Source: Gemmatimonas sp. | Lineage (GTDB): Bacteria; Gemmatimonadota; Gemmatimonadetes; Gemmatimonadales; Gemmatimonadaceae | DNA length: 64,000 nucleotides | Direction of reading: 5' to 3' | NCBI GenBank assembly: GCA_011390805.1 | Contig: JAABRT010000001.1 | Coordinates: 62,001 to 126,000, forward strand | Shown here: piece by piece, positions 25,467-55,906 of the stretch | Layout: each line of letters starts with the position of its first letter | Numbering within the stretch: the stretch's first letter is position 1 | Made by a program: the position numbers and the translations under genes | Notes under the pieces: model-generated | Told to the model about the DNA's origin: nothing | Seen by the model: only the letters and a program-made list of their open reading frames with translations | Database searches by the model: none

Positions 25467-25631
25467 AAACCATTTTCTCCAGTAAGCAGCGGCGACTGCA
25501 ACGGCAGTCTTCATGTCACATCCCTCGGTCTGCATAAAGCGACAAGCAAGCCGAAAGAACGTCACTCAGATTCGCACACGGTGCAATAGTACGCCGAGTT
25601 GCGGTCTGTGCCTGCTCCCTACCCCTGCGCC

Positions 25632-27431
25632 ATGCCCAAGGTCTGTCCCGTCTGCGAAGCATCGTTTCCCGATGCCACCATGTTCTGCCCCACCGACGGC
25701 TCCACCTTGCGGGCGGCCGAGGTCGATGGTGATCTCATCGGCTCGGTAATTGCCGATCGCTACCTGGTTACCGATCTGCTGGGTGAAGGCGGGATGGGCA
25801 AGGTGTATCTGGCCCGACACGTTCGCCTGCCGCAGCAGGCCGCAATCAAGGTGTTGCGTCCGGCCATGCTGCGCGACCCGGCAGCCGTGGCCCGCTTTAA
25901 GCGTGAAGCGGCCAACGCCAGTCGCATTGAGCATGAGCGCATCGCGCGCGTTTTTGACTTCGGGGAATCGTCCGACGGCACCGTCTATCTGGCCATGGAG
26001 TTCGTGCCCGGGCGCACCCTCAAGCGCATCATCACCGCAGACGGTGCGCTGACTCCGGAACGCGCCTCTACCATCACACGGCAGATCAGCGAAGCGCTTG
26101 ATGCCGCCCACCGGCTCGGCATCGTGCATCGCGATCTCAAGCCTGACAATGTCATGGTGATTGAGGACGCGGAAGTCGGAGACCGCTGCAAGGTGGTGGA
26201 TTTCGGGATCGCCAAAGCTGTGGGTGGCGACGCGGGAGAAGCGGGCTTAACAAAAACCGGCTTCATCGTGGGCACGCCCGAGTTCATGAGCCCGGAGCAG
26301 TTGCTCGGAGAAAACGTAGATCATCGAAGTGATGTGTACGCGCTCGCGCTGCTGGCTTTTCAATGCCTCACCGGGGCACTGCCGTTTGACTCCACCACGC
26401 CTGAGCGCGCGATGACGGCCCGGCTGGTTGAGAAGCCCAGAACGCTTGACGCGGTTCACCCGCGTACCGCGTGGCCCGCGTCAGTGCAGGCAGTGTTTGA
26501 TCGAGGGCTGGCCAAAAGCGCCGCCGATCGGTACCCAAGCGCTGGTGCGTTCGCGAAGGATCTGGCCTCGGCGATCGCGTCGTGGAACGCGGGCCCGGCC
26601 AGCGCGCCGTCAGCGCCGCCGGCCGAGGCAAAGCCGCTGAGCTCACCCGTCGCCTCATCAGCGATTGCGGGTGGCGCGCCTTATTCATCGCCCGCAACTT
26701 CCGGAAAAACCGAAGAAAATAGCACCAGCAACAAGACTTCAAAAAGCCAGTTACCGCTCATCGGTGGCGGTATAGCGGCAATTGTGGGGATAGCGGCGCT
26801 GGTCTTTGTGCTTACGCGTCCTGACGCGACAAATCAAAACGACACAGTCTCACAGCCCGCCGAAATGCCCTCCGGGAGCGAAGCGATCGCACCTCAAGTG
26901 ATTTCTCAAGGGCAAGACACAGATCAGATTCAAGCACCTGTAGGCGACACACAAGAGCCACAACTGGAACTTAATAAAGACAGAGAGACGGCAAACGCTG
27001 CGGCCGGTTCCGCTTCGGGAAATCAGGCTAACGTTGGCTCGCAACCTCGGACCAGCGGTGCCAGCGCCGACACTCCTCAAGCCGGCAGCAGTTCGTCCAG
27101 CACCGCCTCTACCGCAACCGGCAGCACCGAATCCAACGCCGCCGCCCGGGCCAGAGTCACGCTCGACAGCATCAGGCGGGCCATTGATCCGCTCACCGCC
27201 ACGCCAGCCCAGGCGCGCGAGGGGGTGGCTGCGCTGCGTGTGCTCATGCCTCGCCTGGGATCGGCCGAAGACAGCGCCTGGGCCTTCCTGCGGCAGGCCG
27301 AAGCGCACTTCATCATGAACGATGCACGGTCCGCTTGTGTCGCACTCAAGGCCGCACGACCCCTGCTTCGGACCGCCGGACAGCGGGATATCATGGCGCT
27401 CATGAGCGGCTCCATCAGCGACGATTGCTGA
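25632..27431 (+). CDS. Membrane Ser/Thr protein kinase with N-terminal zinc ribbon
   Basis: A 599-residue protein. Residues 5-23 form a zinc ribbon (CPVCEAS, FCPTDG). The kinase domain has the glycine loop GEGGMGKV (51-58), Lys73 in AIKVL, HRDLKPDN (from 166) and DFG (190-192), and is intact. A Pro/Ala/Ser linker leads to a single membrane helix (about 374-394), a low-complexity segment, and a C-terminal helical TPR-like domain outside. The ATG at 25632 places the ribbon at the N-terminus. It lies next to, and converges with, tssM. That suggests a PpkA-like role in controlling the secretion machine, but no PppA phosphatase or FHA protein is seen in this window. Confidence 0.88.
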   Translation: MPKVCPVCEASFPDATMFCPTDGSTLRAAEVDGDLIGSVIADRYLVTDLLGEGGMGKVYLARHVRLPQQAAIKVLRPAMLRDPAAVARFKREAANASRIEHERIARVFDFGESSDGTVYLAMEFVPGRTLKRIITADGALTPERASTITRQISEALDAAHRLGIVHRDLKPDNVMVIEDAEVGDRCKVVDFGIAKAVGGDAGEAGLTKTGFIVGTPEFMSPEQLLGENVDHRSDVYALALLAFQCLTGALPFDSTTPERAMTARLVEKPRTLDAVHPRTAWPASVQAVFDRGLAKSAADRYPSAGAFAKDLASAIASWNAGPASAPSAPPAEAKPLSSPVASSAIAGGAPYSSPATSGKTEENSTSNKTSKSQLPLIGGGIAAIVGIAALVFVLTRPDATNQNDTVSQPAEMPSGSEAIAPQVISQGQDTDQIQAPVGDTQEPQLELNKDRETANAAAGSASGNQANVGSQPRTSGASADTPQAGSSSSSTASTATGSTESNAAARARVTLDSIRRAIDPLTATPAQAREGVAALRVLMPRLGSAEDSAWAFLRQAEAHFIMNDARSACVALKAARPLLRTAGQRDIMALMSGSISDDC

Positions 27432-27455: not shown

Positions 27456-30400
27456 CTACGGCGCCTTGACCACCGGCGATGGACAGTTGAGCGACTGACC
27501 CAGCCAGCCGCTCTGCATGAGCGGCAAACCGCCGGCAAAACTGTAGCTGACCACCACGGTGCGATCGCCCTCGGTGTAGGTCACCTTCAACTCGCCATTC
27601 GCCCAGCTGCCGTTGCCTTTGGCAATCAGGCGGAACAGCGCCCACTCACCCGACTCGTCGGCGAAGCTCACGCGGCTGGTGCGCCCGAAGCTTCTCGACA
27701 CCTCCACCTCCAGCTGCGCCGTTTGCGGGTTGCCGGCGGCCAGTGGCCACTCCAACACGTTGGCCGGCGTGCGCGTGTCAAACTGCGCCAGCGTATTGCC
27801 ATGCTTGAGCAGCACGCGATCAACTTCGCCGCCCGGTGTTGACTTGGCGTCTACACGGACACGCGGTTCAGTGGCCCCGTTGGGAAACAGCGCGCTCGAA
27901 ATCCGTGCGGCCCGATTAAAGAACTGCAGGAACTCGTCGGTGAGCTGCATGGGTGCCCCCGCACGCTGCACCCACTGCGTGCCGCGCTGTTCAACCAACG
28001 GCGCCAGATGGTCGGCATGCAGAATCCAGAATGCGCCAATATCAGGTGCCAGCACGTTGCTGATCTCTCCCAGCGTGGCTTCGGCGCGCGCGCTGCTGTT
28101 AAACGGATAACGGGACGTGAGCCCGCCCAGCGTCCGGCAGAACTCCACCCCCGCTCGATTCACCGCCGCCGACGGTGGTTCGGCGGCTGCCCCGCCACCA
28201 CCGCCACCGCCGCCGCCAGCCGCGGGCGCCGGAGCTGGTGCGGGTGCCGCTTGTGCCACGCGTACACGAGGTGGGCGTGTGGCCGCCACGGTGCGCAGTA
28301 CACCTTCGGCACCGGAAATCGGCGCCTCGAGCAGCGCCGACACCACCGGGCCGAGCTGAGACGCGGCCGTGTCCACCGCAAACGTCTGCGCGACCTGACG
28401 CGCCGACACCTTGGCGCGCGTAGCCTCGGACATCGCGCCTTGCGCGCTCTGTGCGATGGCCAGTGCACTGGCCGTGTCTACCACGGGCGGCATATTCGCG
28501 ACCTGCTCCAGCGCGCCTTGCAGATTGAGCAAACCGTTCGCGTACGGTTGATTAGGCTCGCTCACCAGCTTGTCCTTCACCGCCGGCGGTGTCACCGCGT
28601 GCACCGGCTGAAAGGCGGCCGTGGTGATGGAGTCCACATCGGTGTTCTGCGCAACGAGCGAGAAGAGACCCAGCAACGGCGACTGTGCACCACCCAGAAT
28701 GCCGAGCTTCTGCGCTGCATCGGCCGTGCTGCCCGGCGGCACGATGGCCGTTGAACGCACAAACTGACGCCACTGGCGGATGTAGTCGCTTGTATAGCGC
28801 GCCTTCAGCTCGTCGATCACACGATCACGATCGTCGGCCAGCGCGGCCGTCGCGTCCCCAACCACCCACTGCTCACCCTGGAAGTAGCGGTCGGCGTTCA
28901 CGAACGCATCCTGCATGAACGTCCATCCGCCACGCGTGAACGCGCCCGCCACTTCCCCCGACGACGCCATCACACCCGCAGAGTTGGGCACTGCTTGCGC
29001 CAAACGGACCGACGGATTGTTCTTTCCCGCCTCGGCCAGCATTGACTGATAAATCGGCTCCGCCCCGGTGAATCGGCCAAGGTAGTTGCGCGATGTGCCA
29101 ACCAGGCGCGCGTCGGCGGCCGTTGGCCATGGATGCTCAACCGCCAACTCCTCGGCAAAATATTCAAACTGCCGGCGCGCCAATGCGGTGACGTCGGCGT
29201 CCACCGTCTCGCCGCGCTGCCAAGAAGCGAGTAACACCGGCGCCAGAAAATCAGACGTACTGCGTTCGTGTTCAGCAGTGGTGATGAGATACGCCTTCAG
29301 CCGGTTGTACACTGTGCCGTAGTCATCGGAGGGACTGGGCGCGCTGGGCAGGGCGCGCAGCGAGTCCACCAAGGGCTGCCAGCTGTCGGTGTAAAGTTGC
29401 TGACGGAAACCCTGCAGCCACACCGGCCGTGCCGCATCGAGCAGCGCCGGTCCGCTCCAGAGTCCCATGCGCATCATGAGCGGTGCACCATCACGCTCGT
29501 AGCCGCGCAACGTGTCCAGCACAGCGCGCAGCGTCTCCAGCCGGCGCAGCGCTTCAGGCGACGGAAACACAATCGTGCCCTGCGGCGCCGTAACCTGTGG
29601 CAAGGCGGCCACGGCGCGCGCGGCGTCTTCGGTGCGCGATGTGAGCGAACGGTTGTTGGCCCACGAAATCGTAAACAGAATCGACGCGACAGCGGCAACG
29701 CCAACCGCAGTGCCCAGCATCGCGCGACGCAGCCGGTGCACACGGACACCTCCGCGCGCGGCCGACGCCGCACCCGTGTCTGCCAGCACCACGTCACTGA
29801 AGAAGCGGTCGAGAAACATCCACTCCGGCACTTTGCGGGTTGGCGCGTTGCTCGACGCAGCGAGTGATTGTGCAGGTTGCTGAACTTTTGCAAACACCGC
29901 CGTGGCGTCGGCTGCCATGGGAGATCGCAACGCCTGTGGTGCCGACGGCGCACTGGCCACATCCCGCACCAGCACCGGTCGCACACCCACGAAGTAGAAG
30001 CCGCGCAGCTGCGGGCTCACTCCCAACTGGGTGGGACGCGTGATTTCCGTGAGAAACTTTGTGGCCGCGACGGCGACTTTGCGGAACTCACGGGGCAACT
30101 CGTACGACGCCAACCGTTTGTCGCTGGCATTCTCACGTCCGAGCAACTCCAGTCGCCGCGTGGCCAATGAACGGGTGATGGCGTCGAACGCCTCGGTAAG
30201 GCGCGGCGTGAGGCGTTCTGCATGAGCACCGGGCGCACCATCGGCATCAAAGGGCAGGCCGGCGCCGAGCGGAGCACGCGTTTCGTCGCGCGTGAACGTT
30301 GAAGCCCACGCCTCGTAATGAGGAATCCGATCGGCTTTGGTGAACAGTACATACACCGGCAACTTGATACCGAACTCACGTGCGGCTTCGGCCAGCCGTT

Positions 30401-31034
30401 GCCTGGTGAGTTGCGCCAGCGTTTCGAGTTGCTCGCCGGCGTTGCCGCTGTAGAACAGATCACAGCTTACACACAGCACAGCGGCGCGCGGCGCGACTTC
30501 GCCGCGTCCCACAGCGGCGGCAACACGCGGTGCACGAAGCGCACGCACGACACGTTGCCAGCGCGTGGCATCGGTAAGCAGTCCCCCACCTGCCTCGGCC
30601 AGAATCGCAGCGCGCACGGCCCACACATTCACTGCGGCAGTTGGTGCGTCGGCGCCGGTAGCTTCACCGGCCAGCAGTTCGGGATCCAATCCACTGCGTG
30701 TGACAACGGTTGTCTTGCAACTGCTGCTGCTACCGAGCAGCAACACCAGAGGCCGTTGATCAAAGGCCCCGCGCGCCAGACGTTTGCGCGCTTCGGCAAT
30801 AGTCTGTACGGCATCATCGCCGCTGGTATCGATGTTTGGATCCGGTGCTTCACGCGGTCGCAGGTACCACCAGAGCATCGCGGCCGCGGCGACGCCCAGC
30901 AGTACCAACCCGATGCGCAGAATCCATTGCTCTGTGGTGCTGAGCGTCAACAGGTTGCCAAGCAGCCATGCGGCTGCAACAAAGAGCAGCAGCACGACGC
31001 CGGCGGCAATCCAACGGGTAGCGGGTTTTTTCAT
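27456..31034 (-). CDS. tssM: TssM/IcmF, type VI secretion inner-membrane protein
   Basis: About 1192 residues. Two N-terminal membrane helices (~8-32 and ~38-58) precede a P-loop-like cytoplasmic domain. A third helix (LGTAVGVAAVASILFTISWA) leads to a long periplasmic region, a Pro/Ala/Gly9 linker and a C-terminal beta domain. The P-loop reads GSSSSCKTT (residues 101-109; bases 30708-30734), with Cys where the last Gly of GxxxxGK[ST] should be. The DTAGR motif of other TssM proteins reads AEAGGG, while TKAD is kept. So nucleotide hydrolysis is doubtful. TssM and TssL form the membrane complex. The ATG at 31034 follows the tssL stop directly; a TTG at 31040 is the alternative. Confidence 0.9.
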   Translation of the reverse strand: MKKPATRWIAAGVVLLLFVAAAWLLGNLLTLSTTEQWILRIGLVLLGVAAAAMLWWYLRPREAPDPNIDTSGDDAVQTIAEARKRLARGAFDQRPLVLLLGSSSSCKTTVVTRSGLDPELLAGEATGADAPTAAVNVWAVRAAILAEAGGGLLTDATRWQRVVRALRAPRVAAAVGRGEVAPRAAVLCVSCDLFYSGNAGEQLETLAQLTRQRLAEAAREFGIKLPVYVLFTKADRIPHYEAWASTFTRDETRAPLGAGLPFDADGAPGAHAERLTPRLTEAFDAITRSLATRRLELLGRENASDKRLASYELPREFRKVAVAATKFLTEITRPTQLGVSPQLRGFYFVGVRPVLVRDVASAPSAPQALRSPMAADATAVFAKVQQPAQSLAASSNAPTRKVPEWMFLDRFFSDVVLADTGAASAARGGVRVHRLRRAMLGTAVGVAAVASILFTISWANNRSLTSRTEDAARAVAALPQVTAPQGTIVFPSPEALRRLETLRAVLDTLRGYERDGAPLMMRMGLWSGPALLDAARPVWLQGFRQQLYTDSWQPLVDSLRALPSAPSPSDDYGTVYNRLKAYLITTAEHERSTSDFLAPVLLASWQRGETVDADVTALARRQFEYFAEELAVEHPWPTAADARLVGTSRNYLGRFTGAEPIYQSMLAEAGKNNPSVRLAQAVPNSAGVMASSGEVAGAFTRGGWTFMQDAFVNADRYFQGEQWVVGDATAALADDRDRVIDELKARYTSDYIRQWRQFVRSTAIVPPGSTADAAQKLGILGGAQSPLLGLFSLVAQNTDVDSITTAAFQPVHAVTPPAVKDKLVSEPNQPYANGLLNLQGALEQVANMPPVVDTASALAIAQSAQGAMSEATRAKVSARQVAQTFAVDTAASQLGPVVSALLEAPISGAEGVLRTVAATRPPRVRVAQAAPAPAPAPAAGGGGGGGGGAAAEPPSAAVNRAGVEFCRTLGGLTSRYPFNSSARAEATLGEISNVLAPDIGAFWILHADHLAPLVEQRGTQWVQRAGAPMQLTDEFLQFFNRAARISSALFPNGATEPRVRVDAKSTPGGEVDRVLLKHGNTLAQFDTRTPANVLEWPLAAGNPQTAQLEVEVSRSFGRTSRVSFADESGEWALFRLIAKGNGSWANGELKVTYTEGDRTVVVSYSFAGGLPLMQSGWLGQSLNCPSPVVKAP

Positions 31035-31041
31035 CGCCAAC

Positions 31042-31740
31042 TCAGCGTGCCTCAGTTACTGCCAACGACCGCACATCGGCGCGATCGCTCTGCAATAACA
31101 TGGTATAGGAGCCCCAGAGAGCCACGGCCAGCACGGCACTGGCAATCGCGGCAACAGTCAATCGGCGGAGCCAGGGATCGCGCTCCACCACGGAATCGTT
31201 GGGCGGACGCCACTCGGGGGCCAGATCACCCGCCGGACCACGCAAACGGTTTATGCGTTCGCTGATGCGTGACGTCAGCGCATGCAACGGTGACTGATCC
31301 CCCGCGCCGTAGCGGCCCTTGAAGCCGAGCAGCAGACACAGTTGATGCACTTCGAGCAGGTCGGCCAGTTGGGCATCGTCGGGACGGCTCAGCAGCTGGT
31401 CCACATGCTGAAAGAACCACTCGCCGCCCATATGCCCACCGTACAGCTCGTCCTGCAATGGCCTGCGGGCCCATTCGGCCAACGCCGGCTGTCCGGTGTT
31501 GAGCGCCGATTCGTCGAGAAACGCAACCACGGCAAACACACCCAGCCGTGCATCCTGTTCGGAGTAGCCGGCCGCTCGCGCTTCCTGTTCGGCGCGCGCG
31601 AGCAGTTGCATCATTTGCGTGCGAAATGCACCGGCGTCGGAAATGGGTTGGCGGTTGGCGCGCAGTCGCACCACGGCGGTGATGGCTTCCTGCAGAATCA
31701 GCGCGAGTCGTCCGGTGGTGGACGTGACGAGTTGCGGCAT
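31042..31740 (-). CDS. tssL: TssL/DotU, type VI secretion inner-membrane protein
   Basis: A 232-residue DotU-family protein: a cytoplasmic helical domain (FAVVAFLDESALNTG, LADLLEVHQLCLLLGFKGRYG) and a single C-terminal membrane helix (VAAIASAVLAVALWGSYTML). No peptidoglycan-binding (OmpA-like) extension is present, and only ~20 residues follow the helix. Its stop lies next to the start of tssM, as expected for the membrane-complex pair. It probably shares a transcript with tssK1 upstream. Confidence 0.92.
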   Translation of the reverse strand: MPQLVTSTTGRLALILQEAITAVVRLRANRQPISDAGAFRTQMMQLLARAEQEARAAGYSEQDARLGVFAVVAFLDESALNTGQPALAEWARRPLQDELYGGHMGGEWFFQHVDQLLSRPDDAQLADLLEVHQLCLLLGFKGRYGAGDQSPLHALTSRISERINRLRGPAGDLAPEWRPPNDSVVERDPWLRRLTVAAIASAVLAVALWGSYTMLLQSDRADVRSLAVTEAR

Positions 31741-31793: not shown

Positions 31794-33203
31794 CTATTCG
31801 GGCACCATCACTGCAACGTGCAGTTCAATGTCAGGAAGTGCAGCGGGCACGTACACGCCAATTTCCTTTGTGTCGCGCAGCGCTTTGGCGCAGGGGCCGT
31901 CGAGCGTGAGTTCGAAATACGCAAAATCAGGGCGCGGTGCGATAGCCGGAGGCGGCGAGGGCACGTGATCAAGCGCCAACCCGTGAAACGCCCGCTTCAC
32001 CAGCTCAAGCACAAACTTTGTGGCACACACTTTGGTGAGCTGCGGCACCAGCGACACCGTTTGCGACATGCCAAGTGAGGTACGCACCGCCAGAAACCAG
32101 CGCGCCGACGGCTCGTAACAGCGCGCATCGCTGACGGGCGCACCGTAGAGCACATCGGCCAGCTGCGGCAATGGTGTCACCACCGCGCGTACGGCAATCA
32201 CAACATCGAGTTGCTCTCGCAGAAAGCGCTCAAGACGGTCGAAGCATTCCTGCGGTGCGTCATGATCATAGCTTGGCAGATCACGCGCGTGCGTGGTAAG
32301 CGAGAAGGTGCACAGCGCTCCGGCCAGTCGCAGGATTTCCAGCCACAGCTGTTCCGGATGCGCATCCTGACTGCGCAGCATATGACGCAACGGTGCTTCA
32401 GCCGACCGGACAGCGTGCAGCAGCCATCGTGTGGCCAACTCGTTACCGAGGTAGGCCTGTGCACCGCCGCTGCCACCGCTGTTTTGCGCGGGTGCGAGCG
32501 ATTCAGCGAGCGCTTGCCCCTTCGCATCGAGCATGCCCACAAGGCGGTGTGTGAACTCGAGTAACCGCGTGCTGGCACCAATGCGGACGCTGGGCGGAAT
32601 AAATCGCGGATCGAGCACGTATGCGCCCGCCCCGTCACGACGCACGCGCGCAATGGGCAGCGTGATTTCATCGCCCGTCAGCTCTTCGTCAAGCAACAAG
32701 CGGCACTGGCGCATGGCGAAGGTCACGGAAACCGGATCCTGCCCCGTTGTTTCATCGGTCACCGACCGTTCGTCGCGCACAAAACGGTGCCGTTCGCGCG
32801 GCGCCGGCGTGTCGAGCGCACCAATGGGCGCCTCACTCCACACGTTGGCTGCGCCATGCTGCCAGGTTGGCAATGCGAGATGAACCACGTGCGCATCGCG
32901 CGTGGGCGAAAATCGATCGGCCAGTGGCGTTGGACTGGGCACACGGTCACCGTCAGGGATGTCAAACGGCGTACCGTCCGGCCAGATGCCCCGCGCGTGC
33001 AGCACGGACAGCGTGCCGTTGCGCAAGGCATCGGTATCGAGTTCACAGGACGCCAGTCCATACGGAAAGGCGTGCAATACGTCGATTGAAGACGCCGCGG
33101 TTGCCTCGAGGTGCCGACGGTGCAGCTGAAAATGCTGCGGAGCGAGGTGCATACCCTCTTCCCACACCACGCGGGCTACCGTTGAGGGAATACGACGACT
33201 CAT
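31794..33203 (-). CDS. tssK: TssK, type VI baseplate protein (copy 1)
   Basis: A 469-residue TssK/VasE protein. It opens with VVWEEGMHLAPQHFQ, matching the family N-terminus, and continues with the shell and head domains (ELTGDEITLPIARVRRDG, TRLLEFTHRLVGM). TssK links the baseplate wedges to the TssL/TssM membrane complex. The ATG at 33203 is chosen because it begins just before the conserved N-terminus; a longer reading to 33614 runs into the promoter region of the divergent gene. It is transcribed with tssL and tssM. A second full tssK lies at 35239-36585. Confidence 0.9.
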   Translation of the reverse strand: MSRRIPSTVARVVWEEGMHLAPQHFQLHRRHLEATAASSIDVLHAFPYGLASCELDTDALRNGTLSVLHARGIWPDGTPFDIPDGDRVPSPTPLADRFSPTRDAHVVHLALPTWQHGAANVWSEAPIGALDTPAPRERHRFVRDERSVTDETTGQDPVSVTFAMRQCRLLLDEELTGDEITLPIARVRRDGAGAYVLDPRFIPPSVRIGASTRLLEFTHRLVGMLDAKGQALAESLAPAQNSGGSGGAQAYLGNELATRWLLHAVRSAEAPLRHMLRSQDAHPEQLWLEILRLAGALCTFSLTTHARDLPSYDHDAPQECFDRLERFLREQLDVVIAVRAVVTPLPQLADVLYGAPVSDARCYEPSARWFLAVRTSLGMSQTVSLVPQLTKVCATKFVLELVKRAFHGLALDHVPSPPPAIAPRPDFAYFELTLDGPCAKALRDTKEIGVYVPAALPDIELHVAVMVPE

Positions 33204-33437: not shown

Positions 33438-35180
33438 ATGAGCGACGACTTCCATAACCGCTATCGTTTGTTGAAGTGCATTGCACTCGAAGATCAGGTG
33501 CGGTCGCACAACGCGCAGGAAGTCGCGACAGGGCGCGTGGTCATGGTGCATCTGCTGGACGACGCCGGGCCGAGCGAGATCAGCGCGTTGCGATCCCAAC
33601 TCGATCGCTTGCATCCGAGCGACAAGTCGCGCGTGCTCGAACTGGCGGTCCTCACATCCGGCTTTGCGGTGGTGACCGACTTTCTGCCGGGCTTCAGTTC
33701 ACTGCCGGGCTGGCTGGCCACGCGCGGCGTCTCCGCGGTTGCAGGAGGCGGAAGCGCCGCACCCGCACCGGGCGGCGCAGCCGCGAATGCTCCACCATCC
33801 GCCAGCGGGGCGGTTGCTCCCAGCCCGGCCAGTAGGCAGGCGCCTCCGGTGAGCGCCGATGATGTGACCGCCGAGGTGCCTTCCATGGCGCCACCGGGCA
33901 ATGCCTTCAATGCGGCGGCTCCCGCTCCGGCTCCAGCAGCTCAGCCAGGCGAGTTCACGAAGCTGTTTGCGGCACCCGCAGCACCCGCAGCACCCGCAGC
34001 GCCCGCAGCGCCCGCGGCGGCGGCGTCAGGTACACCAGCGTCTCCATCCGCGCCGGCGGCGGCTTCTCCGGCGGCTTCTCCGCCTGCTTCACCAGCGCCA
34101 CCAGCTGCGCCATCGCAGCCGGGCGAGTTCACAAAAATGTTCGCGGTACCGGCGGCGGCGCCGGTCCAGCCAACTGCTCCATCACCCCAGGCGCCGCCCG
34201 CGACGCCACCGGCCGCACCGCCGGTGGCCAAACCCGCCATGCCCGCGCCATCAGCGCAGCCTCCCAAAGCGACCCCGGCTGCGCCACCGATGCAGTCGGA
34301 GTATTCGGCGATGTTCAAGCCGCTGGCGGTGCCGCCGCCGCCCGATTTCACGCCTGCGGCAGGCACTGGCGTGCCAGCAGCGTCCAGTGCACCGGCCAAA
34401 CCTCCGGCAGCTCCCACACCTCCGGCACCTCCGGCCACGCCCCAGTTTCCCTCGGCGGGCGCTCCGCCCTCCGCGGCGCCCGGCGAGTTCACACAGCTGT
34501 TCAAGCAGGGCGCGATTGGTGGCGGCAGTTCGGCTCCGCCTTCATCTGCTTCGCTGCCGCCCGCAGCCAATCCCTCACAGTCTCCCTTCGGGTTCTCGTC
34601 ACCACCGCAGCCGCCACGTAGCAGTTCGCCACCTGTCAGCAGCGATGATGCTACCGGTGTGATGCGTGCCATGCCCAGCCCTTCGGCTTCACCGATGTCG
34701 ATGCCCGGCCTTGGCTCCACTGCATTACCCCCGGCAAACTCCTCCAACACCGCACCTTCCCCGGCGCCAGAACCCTCCTCGGCGCCGCCTGCAAAGCAGT
34801 CGGGGCTTCCGCCATTGCTACCGCCCCCGATGTTCGGGGCTAATGCTCCGGCACCGAACAAACCCAGCGCTGTTTCTCCGGTCTCGGCGAGCACTCCGGC
34901 CCCCAGCGCCGCCGCCGGACCGTCGGAATACACACAAATGATCAGCCAGGTGACGCCACCGCCGCCGGCTCCGCCCAAGCCGGCTGCTGCTTCCGTCAAG
35001 GATCAGCCACCGGCGCGCAAGATGCCGATTGGGCTGCTCATCGGGCTGAACGTTGTGGTCGTGCTCGCAATCGCGCTGATTTTGTACTTTGTCTTGCGGC
35101 CTGCCGCGCCTGAAGCGGCAACTCCTGAGACCCCCGCTGATACGGTGGCGCCGGCTACTCCCGGCGCATCTGCGGCGTAG
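33438..35180 (+). CDS. Membrane-anchored Pro/Ala-rich protein with kinase-N-lobe-like domain and five [GS]E[FY][ST] motifs
   Basis: A 580-residue protein of no family I can name. Residues ~1-100 read like a protein-kinase N-lobe (YRLLKCIAL, ATGRVVMVHLLDD, SGFAVVTDFLPGF) but lack a glycine loop, HRD and DFG. A Pro/Ala/Ser-rich region follows. It carries five spaced motifs: PGEFTKLF (170-177), PGEFTKMF (228-235), SEYSAMF (287-293), PGEFTQLF (348-355) and PSEYTQMI (495-502). One membrane helix (about 530-552) and a short Ala-rich tail end it, so most of it should face the cytoplasm. It sits between the two tssK genes, divergent from tssK1 and convergent with tssK2. A signalling scaffold for the secretion machine is inferred. 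Confidence 0.6.
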   Translation: MSDDFHNRYRLLKCIALEDQVRSHNAQEVATGRVVMVHLLDDAGPSEISALRSQLDRLHPSDKSRVLELAVLTSGFAVVTDFLPGFSSLPGWLATRGVSAVAGGGSAAPAPGGAAANAPPSASGAVAPSPASRQAPPVSADDVTAEVPSMAPPGNAFNAAAPAPAPAAQPGEFTKLFAAPAAPAAPAAPAAPAAAASGTPASPSAPAAASPAASPPASPAPPAAPSQPGEFTKMFAVPAAAPVQPTAPSPQAPPATPPAAPPVAKPAMPAPSAQPPKATPAAPPMQSEYSAMFKPLAVPPPPDFTPAAGTGVPAASSAPAKPPAAPTPPAPPATPQFPSAGAPPSAAPGEFTQLFKQGAIGGGSSAPPSSASLPPAANPSQSPFGFSSPPQPPRSSSPPVSSDDATGVMRAMPSPSASPMSMPGLGSTALPPANSSNTAPSPAPEPSSAPPAKQSGLPPLLPPPMFGANAPAPNKPSAVSPVSASTPAPSAAAGPSEYTQMISQVTPPPPAPPKPAAASVKDQPPARKMPIGLLIGLNVVVVLAIALILYFVLRPAAPEAATPETPADTVAPATPGASAA

Positions 35181-35238: not shown

Positions 35239-36585
35239 TCATCGCAGAACTATCACAAGTTCAAAACGCGCGTTCACCAGATCAGAGGGCACGTACACGG
35301 CCAGGTTGCGCGCCCGCTCAACAGCTTCCCACGCCGTACCGTGCCGCTGGATGGCAAAGTACTGGTGGTCGAGCTTCACCGGCACCGCGCTCGGCGGCTG
35401 AGGCGTGTGCACCAGCGACAATCCTGACAACGCCTGGCGGATAAGCGTTTCCACCATGTCTGCCGAGCCCACTTTGCAGCCGCTTTGCACTTTGTGCACA
35501 AGCTCGGCCTGCTTGAGCGGCGCGCTGACCGCCAGAAACCATTGCGGCGCCGTCATCCACGCCGCCTGCTCGATGGCCACCGCCGACAGCGTAGGCCGTA
35601 CAGGACGCAACGGCAACGACACGACAATGTCTGGCACCGACGTTTCGAGAAGCGAAAGCAGCCGCGCTTCAAGTGCGCTGAAGCAATCGCCGAGACGCAG
35701 ATGGTCGTAGGCCGGCAGCGTACGCACCGATTGGTCGGGCTGAAACGTGGTTAGCGCTCCGGTGAGTGCGAGCATGGCTTCCCAGAGTGCGGAAGGGTGC
35801 CCGCGTCGCACATCAGCCAGGTGTCGTAACGTGCCTTCGTGACTGTTGAGGGTGTACAGCAGCCAGAAACTGGCGATGTCGGCCACGGAAAAATCGGCCA
35901 GCCCCTGATTCCGCTGGCGTCGTCCGCCGGCCAGTGTCCCGCTTTTGGCGGACACGATTTCAACCAGCCGACGTGCCATGCTGCGCAGGTAGTCACTGGC
36001 CGACAGGTCGAGCAGCGGAGGCACGAAACTGTGATCCACCGTGACCGCGCCCGCGTCGGAGCGGAGTAGCCGGGCCACGGGCATCGTGGCAAAGCCTTCG
36101 GTCGATTCGCCTTCCATCAGCAGGCGCAGATTGCTGCGCGCCACCTGAATGGGTCGTTCCGCCAGTCCGGTGGTTTCATCGCGCTGCAACAGCTCGTCCA
36201 CGCGCCATCGCGTTGGCAGAGCCGTCGCGGTCGGAGCCACGTTCCGACCATCGGGTCGGTACTCGGGCACGCCGAGCAACACATTCATCACGCGCTGGTC
36301 GGGCTGCCAGAGCTGCGTAATGGTGCGCGGCGGCGGAGCCGGATCGCCGCGAGGCGCGTCAAACAGCAGGCCGTCGGGAAAGCGACCGCTGGCGGTGGAG
36401 ACAACCAGCGTCCCACCGGCCAACGCTTCACGATCGAAGGAGAGTTCGGAAAAGCCCCACGGCGAAAACGCCAGCGCACCGAGCTGCAGCGCCAACGCGT
36501 CGTCGTGGTAGCGGTCCTGCGCTTGCAGATGTTGCGGAGCAAGCAGGACGCCTTTGGTCCAGAGCACTGGGGAGAGCTGACGCAT
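35239..36585 (-). CDS. tssK: TssK, type VI baseplate protein (copy 2)
   Basis: A 448-residue second TssK. The N-terminus VLWTKGVLLAPQHLQAQDRY matches the family pattern and the domains run to the end (NLAVYVPSDLVNARFELVIVLR). It is clearly diverged from copy 1 but has no visible frameshift or deletion. The ATG at 36585 is chosen because it directly precedes the conserved N-terminus. It is divergent from tssB with a 281-bp gap, and stands alone on the minus strand. It may replace or combine with copy 1 in the TssK trimer. Confidence 0.88.
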   Translation of the reverse strand: MRQLSPVLWTKGVLLAPQHLQAQDRYHDDALALQLGALAFSPWGFSELSFDREALAGGTLVVSTASGRFPDGLLFDAPRGDPAPPPRTITQLWQPDQRVMNVLLGVPEYRPDGRNVAPTATALPTRWRVDELLQRDETTGLAERPIQVARSNLRLLMEGESTEGFATMPVARLLRSDAGAVTVDHSFVPPLLDLSASDYLRSMARRLVEIVSAKSGTLAGGRRQRNQGLADFSVADIASFWLLYTLNSHEGTLRHLADVRRGHPSALWEAMLALTGALTTFQPDQSVRTLPAYDHLRLGDCFSALEARLLSLLETSVPDIVVSLPLRPVRPTLSAVAIEQAAWMTAPQWFLAVSAPLKQAELVHKVQSGCKVGSADMVETLIRQALSGLSLVHTPQPPSAVPVKLDHQYFAIQRHGTAWEAVERARNLAVYVPSDLVNARFELVIVLR

Positions 36586-50610: not shown

Positions 50611-51297
50611 ATGACCGAGCATCAGACAGCCGGACTCACTCCGGTACAATGGATCGCTGCGCGCGCCGCCTTGCCAGAGGAGGTCGCGCCACTGGTTACG
50701 TCGGCTAACGACCCCGGTGCGTTGGTGCAGTCGCTTATGCAAGAGGGTCTCGCTCCTGAAGCGATTCGTTGTATTGCCGGTGCGCTGCCGGCGCGCGAGG
50801 GTGTGTGGTGGGCATGGGTGTCAGCACGTCACGCCGCAACGTCAACACATGGAGACGCCATTCCCGACAACGTACAAGAGGCGCTCAATGCCGTCGAGCG
50901 CTGGATCAACGCGCCAGACGACACTACGCGTCGTGAGGCCTGGACGGTGGGCGAAAGCGTGGGCACCGATACACCGGTTGGCGCGGCGGCGGCGGCCGTG
51001 TTCTTGAGTGGCGGAAGCATCGCTCCAGCGGGGGTTGCGAATACACCGGCACCTCCGGGAATCTGCGGAACGCTGGTCAGCACCGCGGTGGTGCTCTCCG
51101 TCGCCACCTCACCACCAGCCGTGATGCCGGCGTTGTTCGATGCGTACGTCAAACAGGGGCTGGCCGTGATCGAACAGCTGGGTGGCTGGGATGTGGCCAT
51201 CGCAAAAACGTGGCAGGCACTTGAAGCGCAGCAGCGCGAAGTCATGAACGCACAAGCCGCTGCTGAACCTGACGCTACCGGGGGACAGCCCTCATGA
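50611..51297 (+). CDS. DUF6931-like protein in spike cassette
   Basis: A 228-residue, mostly helical, soluble-looking protein that lies between VgrG and PAAR and overlaps PAAR by four bases. It contains LTPVQWIAARAALPEEVAPL, EAIRCIAGALPAREGVWWAW and NVQEALNAVERWINAPDDTTR. It resembles a family (DUF6931, by memory) that turns up beside VgrG/PAAR in other genomes. Its role could be a chaperone/adaptor loading a cargo on the spike, or an effector; neither is shown. There is no signal peptide. Confidence 0.65.
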   Translation: MTEHQTAGLTPVQWIAARAALPEEVAPLVTSANDPGALVQSLMQEGLAPEAIRCIAGALPAREGVWWAWVSARHAATSTHGDAIPDNVQEALNAVERWINAPDDTTRREAWTVGESVGTDTPVGAAAAAVFLSGGSIAPAGVANTPAPPGICGTLVSTAVVLSVATSPPAVMPALFDAYVKQGLAVIEQLGGWDVAIAKTWQALEAQQREVMNAQAAAEPDATGGQPS

Positions 51298-51603: not shown

Positions 51604-52173
51604 TTAGTTGCCAACCGTGTAGTTGAACGTGACGTCGATATCCGTATCAAACGTGCACGTCGTCGCGGCCGCCGGCTTGGGGTTGTCGGAGTAGTGGCAG
51701 AGCACCACGCGAATGTTGCCGCTGCCGGCCGCCGCCGCGTTGGCGCTGAACGTGACGCCGAGTGGACGCCCCTGTGAGTCAACGTCAGTGGTGGTGATGG
51801 TCACACCGGGTCCGGTCACCGTGTAGAAGACCCGATGTTCATCGGCTTCCTCTTCCACTTCTTCCGTAATGTTCTCCGGCGGATTTTCCAGACGGTTTTC
51901 GAACAGCACCGAGCCCGTGTACGTGGAACCGGCGGTCAGTGACAGCGCTCCCACCTGTGCACTCGGAGCCTGCGGGCCCGCGCCGTCTGCGTCGTCGATG
52001 TAGGTCACGATCGCGGACCCACCACCGGCCGGAGTCAGCGAAAGCGTCACGCGCGAAATCAGCTCCTGTTCTCCACCAGGTGCAGTGCTGGAATCACCGC
52101 ATGCAGCGACTGTTAACAAAGTGCCAAGCACCAGCGTGCCGGTGGTAAATCGACGTGAGTTCCTGTTCATCAT
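51604..52173 (-). CDS. Small lipoprotein with acidic EE-rich motif, partner of the TonB receptor
   Basis: A 189-residue lipoprotein (LLTVAACGDSS lipobox). The mature part is beta-rich and has the notable motif ENITEEVEEEADEHRVFY, then TTTDVDSQGRPLGVTF and IRVVLCHYSDNPK. The acidic/His segment looks like a metal site. From memory, similar lipoproteins with a PxxDITEEVREEAxEHQ-like segment are common next to TonB receptors in Bacteroidota; I cannot confirm it here. It follows the receptor on the same strand after 108 bp. GGAGCAGATC precedes the ATG. Confidence 0.65.
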   Translation of the reverse strand: MMNRNSRRFTTGTLVLGTLLTVAACGDSSTAPGGEQELISRVTLSLTPAGGGSAIVTYIDDADGAGPQAPSAQVGALSLTAGSTYTGSVLFENRLENPPENITEEVEEEADEHRVFYTVTGPGVTITTTDVDSQGRPLGVTFSANAAAAGSGNIRVVLCHYSDNPKPAAATTCTFDTDIDVTFNYTVGN

Positions 52174-52281: not shown

Positions 52282-54624
52282 TCAATCTCCAATCGGCACA
52301 CGCACTCTCAGCACCACATCGCGGCCGGCGTCGTTAACAAACAGCCGGTAGCGACTGAGATAGTCGCGGAAGCGTGTGTTGAGTGCATTGTTCACGGACA
52401 CGGACACATCCATTTCACGTCCGAACACCATGGCGCTTGTGCCACCCAGCTCGGCACTCAGCAGCGCATAGCCATCGGTGGGCAACGTGTAGATGGTGCC
52501 TTCGGGTACACCGTCCTGCTGCCGGACCAGTGTAGCCCCGGCACCAATGTGCCACGCACCGAACTGCTGATTGCGGCCAACCACACGTGCCTGCAGCAAG
52601 GCGCGGTCGGCCGGCATGTCATAGAGCGGCTGGCCGTTGGCGCGATTGGTGCCGCGCACAGCATTCACGTTGGCCGTGAGCTGCAGCCATTCCAGCGCGC
52701 TCCATGAAGCTGCCAACTCGACACCACGCAACCGCGCGTTTGTTTGTGCATAGTTGTAGGCCGGGAACGCACCACGCAGCGTGAACACCGGCTCACGTGG
52801 CTGCAGGAAAATGAAGTTGTTGATTGCGTTCTGATAGGTGGCCAGATCGAGCGACAGCGTGGGTCCGCCGTAACGCAGTGATGCTTCAACACCGAGCGAA
52901 CGTTCGGCGGCCAGGTCAGCCTGTCCGAGTTCATACTGCGCGGTGCCATGATGCACACCCTGTGCGTAGCGTTCATTGACCGTGGGCGGACGCCACGCGC
53001 GCGCCAGTCGCAGCGATGCGTTCCACGCGTCGCCAATGCGCACGGCGGTGCCCAATGATCCGGAGAATCCACCCCATGAGCGCGAGCCGGCTTCGCTGCG
53101 AATGCCGGCGTCAGCGAACTCGAGGGTGGTTTGTGAAATCAGATCGCCGCGCAACCCGCCGGTTATTGACACCCGTCCCGTGCTCCATTCTTCCTGCGCG
53201 TACAGCGCGCCCTGCCGCAAATCAAAACCGGGAATCAGGAACGCCTTGCCGAGTGTCTGGTTGCCCTGCAGCTGAGCACTGGCACCAACTGTTCCATACA
53301 GGCCGTTCCACGGTGCATGCTTCCAGCGCACATCCAGCGAGTTCGTGAACAGCTTCAGGTTGAACGCCGCTTCATTGCGAAAGCGCAGCGGACCATGGCC
53401 ATCGTACTCGCGCCGATGATTGTACTGCAGTCCGTACACCACCTCGACTTCACTGCCGTCATCGCGCAAGAACGTGTTGCGCCACCGCGCTGTAGTGTGC
53501 GACACCTGCTGGTTGGGATTGTCGATGTCATACGAAAACGATGAGTCGCGCGGCGGCGACATCATCGCGCGCTGCAAGTCATCAAAGTTGCCGGCGTGCG
53601 CCTGACTCAGCACACCAAGCTCCGTCGCAAACCGGCTGAGCAGCAGTTCGCTGGTGCCCCATTCACGCTGCACACCAAACGTCGCGCTGCCGTTGAGTTC
53701 GCGGAATCCGGTGTTGTTCAGGAAATAGTCTGGCGCCGCGCCGTTGCCGGCCACGCGGCTGGTGAGTCGCAGTCGGTACCCGGTGCGCCCGATCAGCGGC
53801 AGCTGCAATCCGCCGCCGTGCACGGAGAGCGAGAGCGCGCCCTGGCGGCTGTTGCTGAAGGTGTTCACCGCCAGATCACCGTGCATTGCCCCGGTATCCG
53901 GGACCAGCGCATGATCAACGCGCACTACGCCACCGAGTGCATCGGCTCCGTAGAGCACGGTGGCTGCGCCGCGTACCACGGTCACCGCATCGGCGTCAAA
54001 GCTGTCAAGATTTGGGGCGTGCTCCGTACCCCACTGCTGATCTTCCTGACGCAGTCCGGCGTTGAGTACCAGAACGCGCTGCGAGTTCAGGCCGCGAATA
54101 ACGGGCTTGGCAATGCTCGGCCCCAGCTGTATAACCGAGACGCCGGGCAGATTCTTGATCGTTTCGCCCAGTGTCTGGCCGCGCATCGCATTGAGCGCGG
54201 CCGCATCGAGCGAGTTCATTGAGGCGACGCGCTCCAGCGCATCGACGAGCGTATCCGCCTGCACATCGACCGACTGCAAGCTGATGGACTGCTGACTCAT
54301 GACCAGCCGCAACAGCACATCCTGGCGCGACAGATCGATCACGCGTTCCACGGGCGCGTACCCAAGGCGTCGCACACGCATGGCCACGCGCTGTGCGGGC
54401 AGATCACGGAAATCGAAACGTCCCGCTTCATCGGTGCGTGTGGTACGGGTGCGAATCGGCTCCCCACCCCAACTCACCGATACCTCGGCGGCCACCAACG
54501 GCGCGGCAGTAGCGGAGTCCGCTACCGTTCCGTGCAAGTGCCGTCCACCTTGCGCACGTACAGCGCGCAACGGCAGCGATACGAGCGACATGATGAGTAG
54601 GAGATGGATGGGCCAGGGGATCAC
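52282..54624 (-). CDS. TonB-dependent receptor (metal or metal-complex uptake likely)
   Basis: A roughly 780-residue outer-membrane receptor. It has a signal peptide (IHLLLIMSLVSLPLRAVRAQ), an N-terminal carboxypeptidase-regulatory-like fold (HGTVADSATAAPLVAAEV), a plug (LPGVSVIQLGPSIAKPVIRG, VVRGAATVLYGADALGGVV) and a beta-barrel ending LRVRVPIGD. The start is set at the GTG of 54624 because a promoter with Fur-like hexamers lies at 54690-54717. A longer reading to 54720 would begin inside it. It is followed by the acidic-motif lipoprotein. The substrate is unknown; the operator points to a metal. Confidence 0.87.
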   Translation of the reverse strand: MIPWPIHLLLIMSLVSLPLRAVRAQGGRHLHGTVADSATAAPLVAAEVSVSWGGEPIRTRTTRTDEAGRFDFRDLPAQRVAMRVRRLGYAPVERVIDLSRQDVLLRLVMSQQSISLQSVDVQADTLVDALERVASMNSLDAAALNAMRGQTLGETIKNLPGVSVIQLGPSIAKPVIRGLNSQRVLVLNAGLRQEDQQWGTEHAPNLDSFDADAVTVVRGAATVLYGADALGGVVRVDHALVPDTGAMHGDLAVNTFSNSRQGALSLSVHGGGLQLPLIGRTGYRLRLTSRVAGNGAAPDYFLNNTGFRELNGSATFGVQREWGTSELLLSRFATELGVLSQAHAGNFDDLQRAMMSPPRDSSFSYDIDNPNQQVSHTTARWRNTFLRDDGSEVEVVYGLQYNHRREYDGHGPLRFRNEAAFNLKLFTNSLDVRWKHAPWNGLYGTVGASAQLQGNQTLGKAFLIPGFDLRQGALYAQEEWSTGRVSITGGLRGDLISQTTLEFADAGIRSEAGSRSWGGFSGSLGTAVRIGDAWNASLRLARAWRPPTVNERYAQGVHHGTAQYELGQADLAAERSLGVEASLRYGGPTLSLDLATYQNAINNFIFLQPREPVFTLRGAFPAYNYAQTNARLRGVELAASWSALEWLQLTANVNAVRGTNRANGQPLYDMPADRALLQARVVGRNQQFGAWHIGAGATLVRQQDGVPEGTIYTLPTDGYALLSAELGGTSAMVFGREMDVSVSVNNALNTRFRDYLSRYRLFVNDAGRDVVLRVRVPIGD

Positions 54625-54840: not shown

Positions 54841-55251
54841 ATGGTCCTGATTCTGATCGTCGCACTCCTGGCAGGATGCGCCATGCTTGGCGCATGGTAC
54901 GGACGACTTCAGGAACGCGCCTGGTGGACGAGGCGCCTGATCGACCGCGGTATTAACCCGAACACGTTGTACCCGCGTGGCAGCGGCATGCCCCACGCAC
55001 CGCTTGAACCACTCGAGCCGGAAGCGGATGCCATGCGCGATACCATGGAAGACATCGCGCGTGAGGTGGAGCGGTTGGCCGAAGGTCAGCGTTTCCTCAC
55101 CAAGGTGCTCACAGAACGGCCGGCTCCCGATCGAACAATCGACAAACCGGATGACACCCGAAACGGCGCCCCGCATGGCAGCGCTTCGGGAAAGCCGGGC
55201 GATAACGACCGGCCTGACACCCACCCGGACAGGTCAGACCAGGCCATCTGA
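54841..55251 (+). CDS. Membrane-anchored small protein, unknown function
   Basis: A 136-residue protein. One N-terminal hydrophobic helix (ILIVALLAGCAMLGAWYG) may also act as a lipobox-type signal. A basic turn, a helical region (MRDTMEDIAREVERLAEGQRF) and a charged, Gly/Asp/Pro-rich unstructured tail follow. I do not recognise a family. It is divergent from the TonB receptor and converges on the HhH-type gene. Confidence 0.55.
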   Translation: MVLILIVALLAGCAMLGAWYGRLQERAWWTRRLIDRGINPNTLYPRGSGMPHAPLEPLEPEADAMRDTMEDIAREVERLAEGQRFLTKVLTERPAPDRTIDKPDDTRNGAPHGSASGKPGDNDRPDTHPDRSDQAI

Positions 55252-55300
55252 GGGCGACGGCGCGTGCCCCCGACCGCACCAAGCACGAGGCCATCGCGCC

Positions 55301-55906
55301 TCAACCCGTCGCGCCCGCCTTCCCTCCCACATGCGCCCACAATGCACGCTCCACGTCGGTGCACGTGAAGCTTCCGCCGAGCGCGCCCGCCCGCTCGCGC
55401 AGTGCAGCCGCGTAGCGCTCGTAATACTTCAGTGTGAAAGCAGGTGCACCAAGTTCGGGCACCTGTGCGGCCACCAGCTCATCGAGAAAGGGGTAGTCTC
55501 GTGGCGTGTAAGCGCTGAGCACCGCCGAGGCAGTCGCCGGCCCGACACCTCCCAGCTTTGCGATGCCGGCAATCGGCTTCGTGGGGTGAGGCACCTGGGA
55601 CAGCGCATCCTGCGTGACCGCTTTCACGTTGTCGGGCGCATTGCCGCGCACCAGCACCAGGTTGCGGGCACGCCATACCCCGCGAGCCATCTTCCATTCG
55701 GTGAGGCGCACCAGTTCAGCGTGCGTGACAAACGAGGGATTCCGGCCGTGCAGAATCTCCGGCAGCTCACCACGATACCACGCGTCGAGTGAAGTCAACG
55801 CGGGCACGCCCTGGGCTGCAATCACCTGGTCGTACCGCGCCAACGCCGACTGCCAGCGGGCGACTCCTGACTCGTGCCACAGATTCACGGTTGGGCTGGG
55901 CAACAT
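55301..55906 (-). CDS. HhH-type protein, possibly DNA glycosylase-like
   Basis: A 201-residue, helical protein. Its best landmark is GIAKLGGVGPATASAVLSAY, a helix-hairpin-helix pattern. It is followed by an Asp-containing segment (YPFLDELVAAQVPELG) where HhH-GPD enzymes place the catalytic Asp. The N-terminal half (HGRNPSFVTHAELVRLTEWKM) fits proteins of similar kind in fungi and bacteria, all uncharacterised. The ATG at 55906 is preferred to the TTG at 55909. A repair role is inferred only. Confidence 0.6.
   Translation of the reverse strand: MLPSPTVNLWHESGVARWQSALARYDQVIAAQGVPALTSLDAWYRGELPEILHGRNPSFVTHAELVRLTEWKMARGVWRARNLVLVRGNAPDNVKAVTQDALSQVPHPTKPIAGIAKLGGVGPATASAVLSAYTPRDYPFLDELVAAQVPELGAPAFTLKYYERYAAALRERAGALGGSFTCTDVERALWAHVGGKAGATG

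Follow-up and report, generated by a model that had tools for sequence, protein, structure and literature searches.

The threonine-phosphorylation pathway of the proteobacterial type VI secretion system (T6SS) consists of the kinase PpkA, the phosphatase PppA and Fha; PpkA phosphorylates membrane-bound TssL and Fha binds the phosphothreonine (PMC3953482); in Agrobacterium this is pThr14 of TssL. PpkA and Fha also form condensates that recruit T6SS parts (PMC12607579), and the baseplate normally reaches the membrane complex via the head of TssK on TssL and TssM (PMC6300606). Dead kinase folds are known from membrane proteins of other systems, as in EssB/YukC of the type VIIb secretion machine (PMC12599244, PMC9600267) and in MviN/Rv3910, a pseudokinase that is phosphorylated by PknB and bound by FhaA (PMC12599244; PDB 3oun).

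The 580-aa protein described here resembles each of these in part. As in the PpkA/PppA/Fha pathway, Ser/Thr kinase, PP2C and FHA genes are found in the T6SS clusters of relatives, and a conserved Thr lies in the probably cytoplasmic part of a membrane protein; however, what may be phosphorylated here is a new protein with several sites in an array, not TssL or Fha, and of these genes the locus under study has the kinase only. Like the PpkA/Fha condensates, the protein is predicted to be a membrane-linked, probably multivalent recruiter of T6SS subunits, although it has no FHA domain, no active kinase domain and no detected homology to them. EssB has a whole pseudokinase domain and belongs to a different machine, whereas our protein has an N-lobe only and forms without the lobe exist. 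The lobe matches Rv3910 structurally, and in Rv3910 a dead kinase fold stands beside a Thr that is phosphorylated and read by an FHA domain, as may be the case here, but Rv3910 has both lobes, acts in cell-wall synthesis and lacks an array.

A membrane protein gene between two tssK genes

The window, a stretch of 64,000 nucleotides from Gemmatimonas sp., holds a T6SS locus in which the 580-aa ORF sits between two minus-strand tssK genes (E-values for the TssK family 1.7e-120 and 2.6e-131; Table 1). Past tssK1 lie tssL, tssM and a Ser/Thr kinase gene, and past tssK2 lie tssB, tssC, hcp, tagJ, tssA, tssE, tssF, tssG, clpV and vgrG. The full protein matched no family in Pfam or NCBIfam, and its N-terminal domain alone and 13 family members queried singly against Pfam gave nothing significant. 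No FHA domain was matched in the protein, a single-sequence phmmer search of the PDB returned chance hits only (Ras, TLR3), and a published description of the protein was not found in the literature. The view of an earlier note that the protein lies outside the described T6SS subunit families therefore stands.

Table 1. Features of the T6SS locus in the window
Feature	Position	Strand	Basis or remark
Ser/Thr kinase gene next to tssM, putative writer of the Thr switch	25599..27431	+	PF00069; recurs by tssM in relatives
tssM (IcmF)	27456..31040	-	PF06761, PF14331
tssL (DotU)	31042..31740	-	PF09850
tssK1	31794..33134	-	PF05936; start approximate, ORF reads on to 33614
Motif-array membrane protein gene	33438..35180	+	580-aa ORF, ATG start; homologues at same place
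Degenerate protein-kinase N-lobe, residues 1-99	33438..33734	+	AF2, Foldseek, alignments; His38 for catalytic Lys
Motif 1, PGEFTKLF (T174; E172FTKLF)	33945..33968	+	
Motif 2, PGEFTKMF (T232; E230FTKMF)	34119..34142	+	
Motif 3, QSEYSAMF (S290; E288YSAMF)	34293..34316	+	degenerate copy
Motif 4, PGEFTQLF (T352; E350FTQLF)	34479..34502	+	
Motif 5, PSEYTQMI (T499; E497YTQMI)	34920..34943	+	distinct juxtamembrane copy, also in Acidobacteriota
Membrane helix, residues 531-553	35028..35096	+	pLDDT about 90
tssK2	35239..36531	-	PF05936; start approximate, ORF reads on to 36909

A profile search detected the family in 45 of 394 genomes of the class, two further genomes giving kinase hits only; in a sample of 298 genomes of the phylum no hit fell outside the class. 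Weak profile hits in G020 (C2), G050 and G202 were rejected as family members, being true kinases instead. Two full TssK genes are present in 47 of the 394 genomes, 45 of which have the family, while it occurs in none of the seven genomes with a single divergent TssK. The TssK-like gene of these seven (G018, G023, G222, G248, G281, G310 and G349; E about 1e-42) apparently belongs to another contractile system.

The gene adjoins tssK1 in 38 of 39 loci, and tssK2 lies on its other side in 34 of 39, within the retrieved DNA; in the remainder the contig or the retrieved stretch ends, or tssK2 is about 30 kb away, as in Gemmatirosa kalamazoonensis. The exception to the tssK1 adjacency is a second family member in G123 (locus L063), which lies away from tssK. 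There (L063:7015-15213) the gene is divergent from a Ser/Thr kinase gene, and vgrG, DUF2169, ketosynthase-like, AHH nuclease and Imm11 genes follow; the region is an orphan VgrG effector island that has a motif-array protein to itself. The motif-array proteins are thus an undescribed, conserved family associated with the T6SS, and the idea of a T6SS-embedded membrane protein with a scaffold-like build is borne out by its architecture, its loci and the co-occurrence.

Motif array, membrane anchor and N-terminal lobe

The ORF begins with the kinase-N-lobe-like domain and ends with a C-terminal membrane helix; between the two, a disordered Pro/Ala arm carries the five E[FY][ST]xx[FI] motifs. The C-terminal helix is the only membrane helix in the protein, which confirms the single anchor proposed earlier. 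The arm is probably cytoplasmic, since the protein has no signal peptide and several homologues have at most 10 residues past the helix. In G003 (L019:10640-10760) an in-frame stop lies just upstream of the helix and in G125 (L087:9400-9660) the frame seems shifted near it, these defects being either sequencing errors or real truncations.

The motifs are far more frequent than composition would give: the window's linker has 5 against 0.015 expected (5000 shuffles, maximum 1), and the 39 homologues together have 138 against 1.1 expected by shuffling (maximum 6), so that the motifs are kept in homologues at the same locus. Elsewhere in the window's long open frames a single match was found, in a spurious frame at 53446. 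At the DNA level the pattern GEFTx[hydrophobic]F has three hits in the source genome, all within the motif-array gene, and in 60 relatives most matches fall inside motif-array genes, with a reversed control near zero. The five motifs noticed earlier exist where they had been placed, but the central residue of the third is Ser290 and not Ser289, and this copy (MQSEYSAMF) does not fit the prefix [AQP][PS][GS] given for it; it is degenerate in the closest homologue too. The near-regular spacing that had been pointed out (58, 58, 62 and 147 residues in the window by our count) is not a feature of the family, because spacings in the homologues range from 15 to 382 residues.

The repeated consensus is [PA]G[ESA]FT[RQK][LM]F, with 1-9 motifs per homologue and about ten in Granulicella; most homologues have a distinct last copy, PS[ED][FY]TR[VIM][IV], and in most the last motif is 34-53 aa from the membrane helix. 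The motif is conserved within a disordered, freely diverging arm. Besides the Thr, its constants are F at -1, L/M at +2 and F at +3 (Ile/Val in the last motif), while the Glu at -2 is dispensable. When the central position was left free, Thr was found in 115 of 125 motif-like matches in Gemmatimonadota (3.6 matches with any residue expected by shuffling) and in 11 of 13 in Granulicella; it is the most constant motif residue in both phyla and nearly invariant. A preference for Thr over Ser and for a hydrophobic residue at +3 is shared by FHA domains and mycobacterial kinases. The ETTSVF site of GarA/OdhI, a target of PknB/PknG, presumably offers a parallel to the motif in sequences that are not homologous: counted from its Thr it has Glu at -2 and Phe at +3, and FHA domains read motifs of this kind at +3. 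The placement of F, L/M and F at i, i+3 and i+4 suggests that the motif forms an amphipathic helix; full-length AF2 models have short helices at motifs 2 and 5, with low confidence at all motifs. With this low confidence the models gave no support to a binding of the motifs by the lobe in cis, and a universal pairing of lobe and motifs is disfavoured because lobe-less homologues exist.

The profile for the lobe, built from 13 sequences, gave weak, in-register kinase hits in the PDB (MARK1, E 0.017; PknA, 0.068; Rv3910, 0.89) that ranked below artefact hits to designed repeat proteins, and hits to true Ser/Thr kinases of the same class at E 2e-4 to 9e-4. After these weak hits it was the predicted structure that settled the identity of the domain as a kinase N-lobe. 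AlphaFold, given eight sequences, modelled the lobe with pLDDT 88 and pTM 0.80 in the order b1-b2-b3-aC-b4-b5 plus a short helix, that is, a five-stranded sheet plus helix C, and in a Foldseek search of the PDB protein kinases took every one of the first 50 places (probability 1.00; query TM-score about 0.6). One of these hits is the pseudokinase Rv3910 in its complex with FhaA. The beta-3 Lys is replaced by His38, which is invariant in the 13 aligned sequences, and of the features that mark an active kinase (Gly-rich loop, VAIK Lys, HRD, DFG and C-lobe) the 580-aa protein lacks the Lys and the Gly-rich loop, while the arm replaces the whole C-lobe. On its modelled fold, the N-terminal domain is a dead kinase N-lobe, so that the earlier description of residues 1-100 as an N-lobe without catalytic parts was correct in both respects.

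Of the two paired-tssK genomes that at first seemed to be without the gene, G330 has an assembly broken at the site. In G296 the stretch between the two tssK genes encodes, in the same direction as these, a protein without the lobe that has GEFTRLF, GEFTKQF, GDFSRLF and a membrane helix. The evidence from Acidobacteriota is one record of a plasmid collection, a plasmid of Granulicella tundricola, with an 816-aa 'hypothetical protein' between two tssK genes and on the opposite strand to them; an amidohydrolase gene also lies between the two. This protein has about ten PGSFTQMF-type motifs, a last motif AGPSEFTRIV and a C-terminal membrane helix, and again no lobe. A scan of viral contigs with the Granulicella protein gave no hits. 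The Granulicella TssK pair are reciprocal best matches of the window's TssK2 (44%) and TssK1 (34%), and the TssK pair and the array therefore probably descend together; a survey has placed the plasmid T6SS of Acidobacteria and Gemmatimonadetes in one clade (PMC9113992). Since the lobe is absent from G296 and Granulicella while array and anchor remain, the conserved core of the family is the motif array with the last motif and the membrane anchor, and the N-lobe is a lineage-specific part. The design read from the window thus largely holds, with the array rather than the lobe as its central part.

Kinase neighbours and proposed role

Of the 28 loci with enough sequence, 24 have a Ser/Thr kinase gene either no more than about 3 kb from tssM or next to the motif gene, as counted by hand from locus maps. 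The source genome has 41 kinases in 3.96 Mb, and about one such kinase-adjacent locus would therefore be expected by chance. The four loci without a nearby kinase (G003, G024, G123 and G192) all keep the motif Thr. Seven genomes (L097-L103) share the gene order tssM, lipoprotein, kinase, FHA-trypsin protein and CsgG, with which L111 (G296) and L118 (G275) agree; a PP2C relative lies between the kinase and the FHA gene in seven of these nine (L098-L101, L103, L111 and L118). In all nine, the FHA-domain protein beside the T6SS kinase also has a membrane helix and a trypsin-like domain; kinase, FHA-protease and, in several, PP2C form a compact module that closes the T6SS cluster. In Granulicella a Stp1-type PP2C gene follows 78 bases after tssM. 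The window's locus has the kinase and CsgG only: PP2C and FHA genes were not found there, and the genome's two FHA genes lie elsewhere. Taken over the family, the neighbouring genes make up the parts list of the T6SS threonine-phosphorylation pathway (PMC3953482, PMC12607579), and the case for phosphorylation of the motif Thr by the neighbouring kinase, with reading by an FHA protein, is circumstantial.

The role that we propose for the family is a reasoned guess from sequence: an inner-membrane, multivalent docking scaffold for T6SS assembly that would be switched by Thr phosphorylation, a reading which, taken whole, may as easily be wrong as right. Each motif would be a short, inducible amphipathic helix able to dock in a groove of a T6SS subunit, and one arm would thus gather several copies of that subunit at the membrane complex. 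One of the two TssK paralogues of the baseplate, encoded on either side of the array gene, is the best candidate for the docking receptor, and a second TssK together with a membrane-bound arm that repeats the motif would be in keeping with a multivalent tether. The near-invariant Thr would act as the switch: the Ser/Thr kinase next to tssM would phosphorylate it, and the PP2C found in the clusters of some relatives and of Acidobacteriota would remove the phosphate. Phosphorylation might enable or prevent docking, or recognition by an FHA protein, as with PpkA/PppA/Fha in Proteobacteria. The dead N-lobe of the Gemmatimonadota forms would most likely bind the kinase or dimerise. That the protein is a multivalent scaffold dedicated to the T6SS is probable; for phosphorylation of the motif Thr the chances seem evenly balanced, and gene order and co-occurrence make TssK a plausible main partner, at somewhat less than even confidence. 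The reading of a docking scaffold with a switch is favoured by the co-occurrence with paired TssK, the adjacency to tssK1, the lobe-less forms at the same place, the shared TssK pair, the motif kept in a diverging arm, the constancy of the Thr and the recurring kinase, PP2C and FHA neighbours; the phosphorylation of TssL by PpkA, with its binding by Fha, and the PpkA/Fha condensates are precedents for it. Against it count the kinase-less loci that keep the Thr, the lack of a PP2C or FHA gene at the window's locus, the low AF2 confidence at the motifs, and the second member in G123 away from tssK.

Several of these observations would also suit a tether that works without phosphorylation, in which FTxLF is a plain helical docking motif recognised by a TssK paralogue or by some other subunit of the T6SS, the Thr is structural and the kinase serves something else. 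The TssK pair is the most constant companion of the gene, F, L/M and F fall on one helix face with short AF2 helices at motifs 2 and 5, and the Thr is retained without a nearby kinase; yet the hydrophobic residues are no more constant than the Thr, replacement of the Thr by Val or Ile was not seen, and kinase and PP2C genes recur in the clusters, which leaves this explanation unlikely although worth serious attention. The kinase-N-lobe fold raises the alternative of a kinase adaptor, whose dead lobe binds and regulates the neighbouring receptor-type kinase, with the motifs as multisite substrate or pseudosubstrate and only an indirect link to T6SS structure. Rv3910 is a precedent, and a kinase gene directly follows the motif gene in one cluster of G354 (L060) and lies beside the second copy in G123. 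We consider such an adaptor improbable, given that array and anchor remain where the lobe is missing, in Granulicella and in G296, whose cluster keeps the kinase, and that a nearby kinase is missing at some loci.

The order of lobe, linker and membrane helix is also that of receptor kinases, and together with the stop in G003 and the apparent frameshift in G125 it could point to decay: the protein would be what is left of a receptor kinase, cut short, filled out with low-complexity sequence and without a function. Conservation speaks strongly against this, as both the open frame and the motifs persist across dozens of genera in two phyla while the linker diverges, and co-occurrence with the paired TssK is near-perfect; decay is very improbable indeed.

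Returning to the docking scaffold with a Thr switch, its most specific form would be a conserved part, so far unrecognised, of the T6SS with paired TssK in Gemmatimonadota and Acidobacteriota. Anchored in the membrane, this multivalent Thr-switch arm would link one TssK paralogue of the baseplate with the membrane complex and would control the time and place of assembly; we put this forward tentatively, as a possibility that is rather doubtful in all its parts together. The family adds an undescribed, near-constant partner gene to a T6SS branch with two old TssK paralogues, and suggests a reason for the second TssK, as one of the two may be the docking receptor. It also offers a short peptide motif that is directly testable. 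If the Thr is a switch, threonine control of the T6SS would extend outside Proteobacteria by way of a new kind of target, with an array instead of a single site. The lobe is one more case of a dead kinase lobe put to new use by a secretion machine.

Other genes of the clusters

A conserved lipoprotein-like gene lies directly after tssM (L097:659-1441, with related ORFs in 20-odd further loci) and is absent from the window's family; TssJ was not seen in the window, and the lipoprotein-like gene is a possible TssJ stand-in. A second tssC-like gene is found between tssK2 and tssB in L022, L024, L061, L062, L067 and L076. In the window, a DUF6931 gene after vgrG and two nearby ORFs without a Pfam or NCBIfam match occupy 50611-51294, 51607-52173 and 54977-55789. 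A contig titled Candidatus Kuenenia stuttgartiensis (L093) bears a typical Gemmatimonadota-like family member and probably comes from a mislabelled or mixed MAG.
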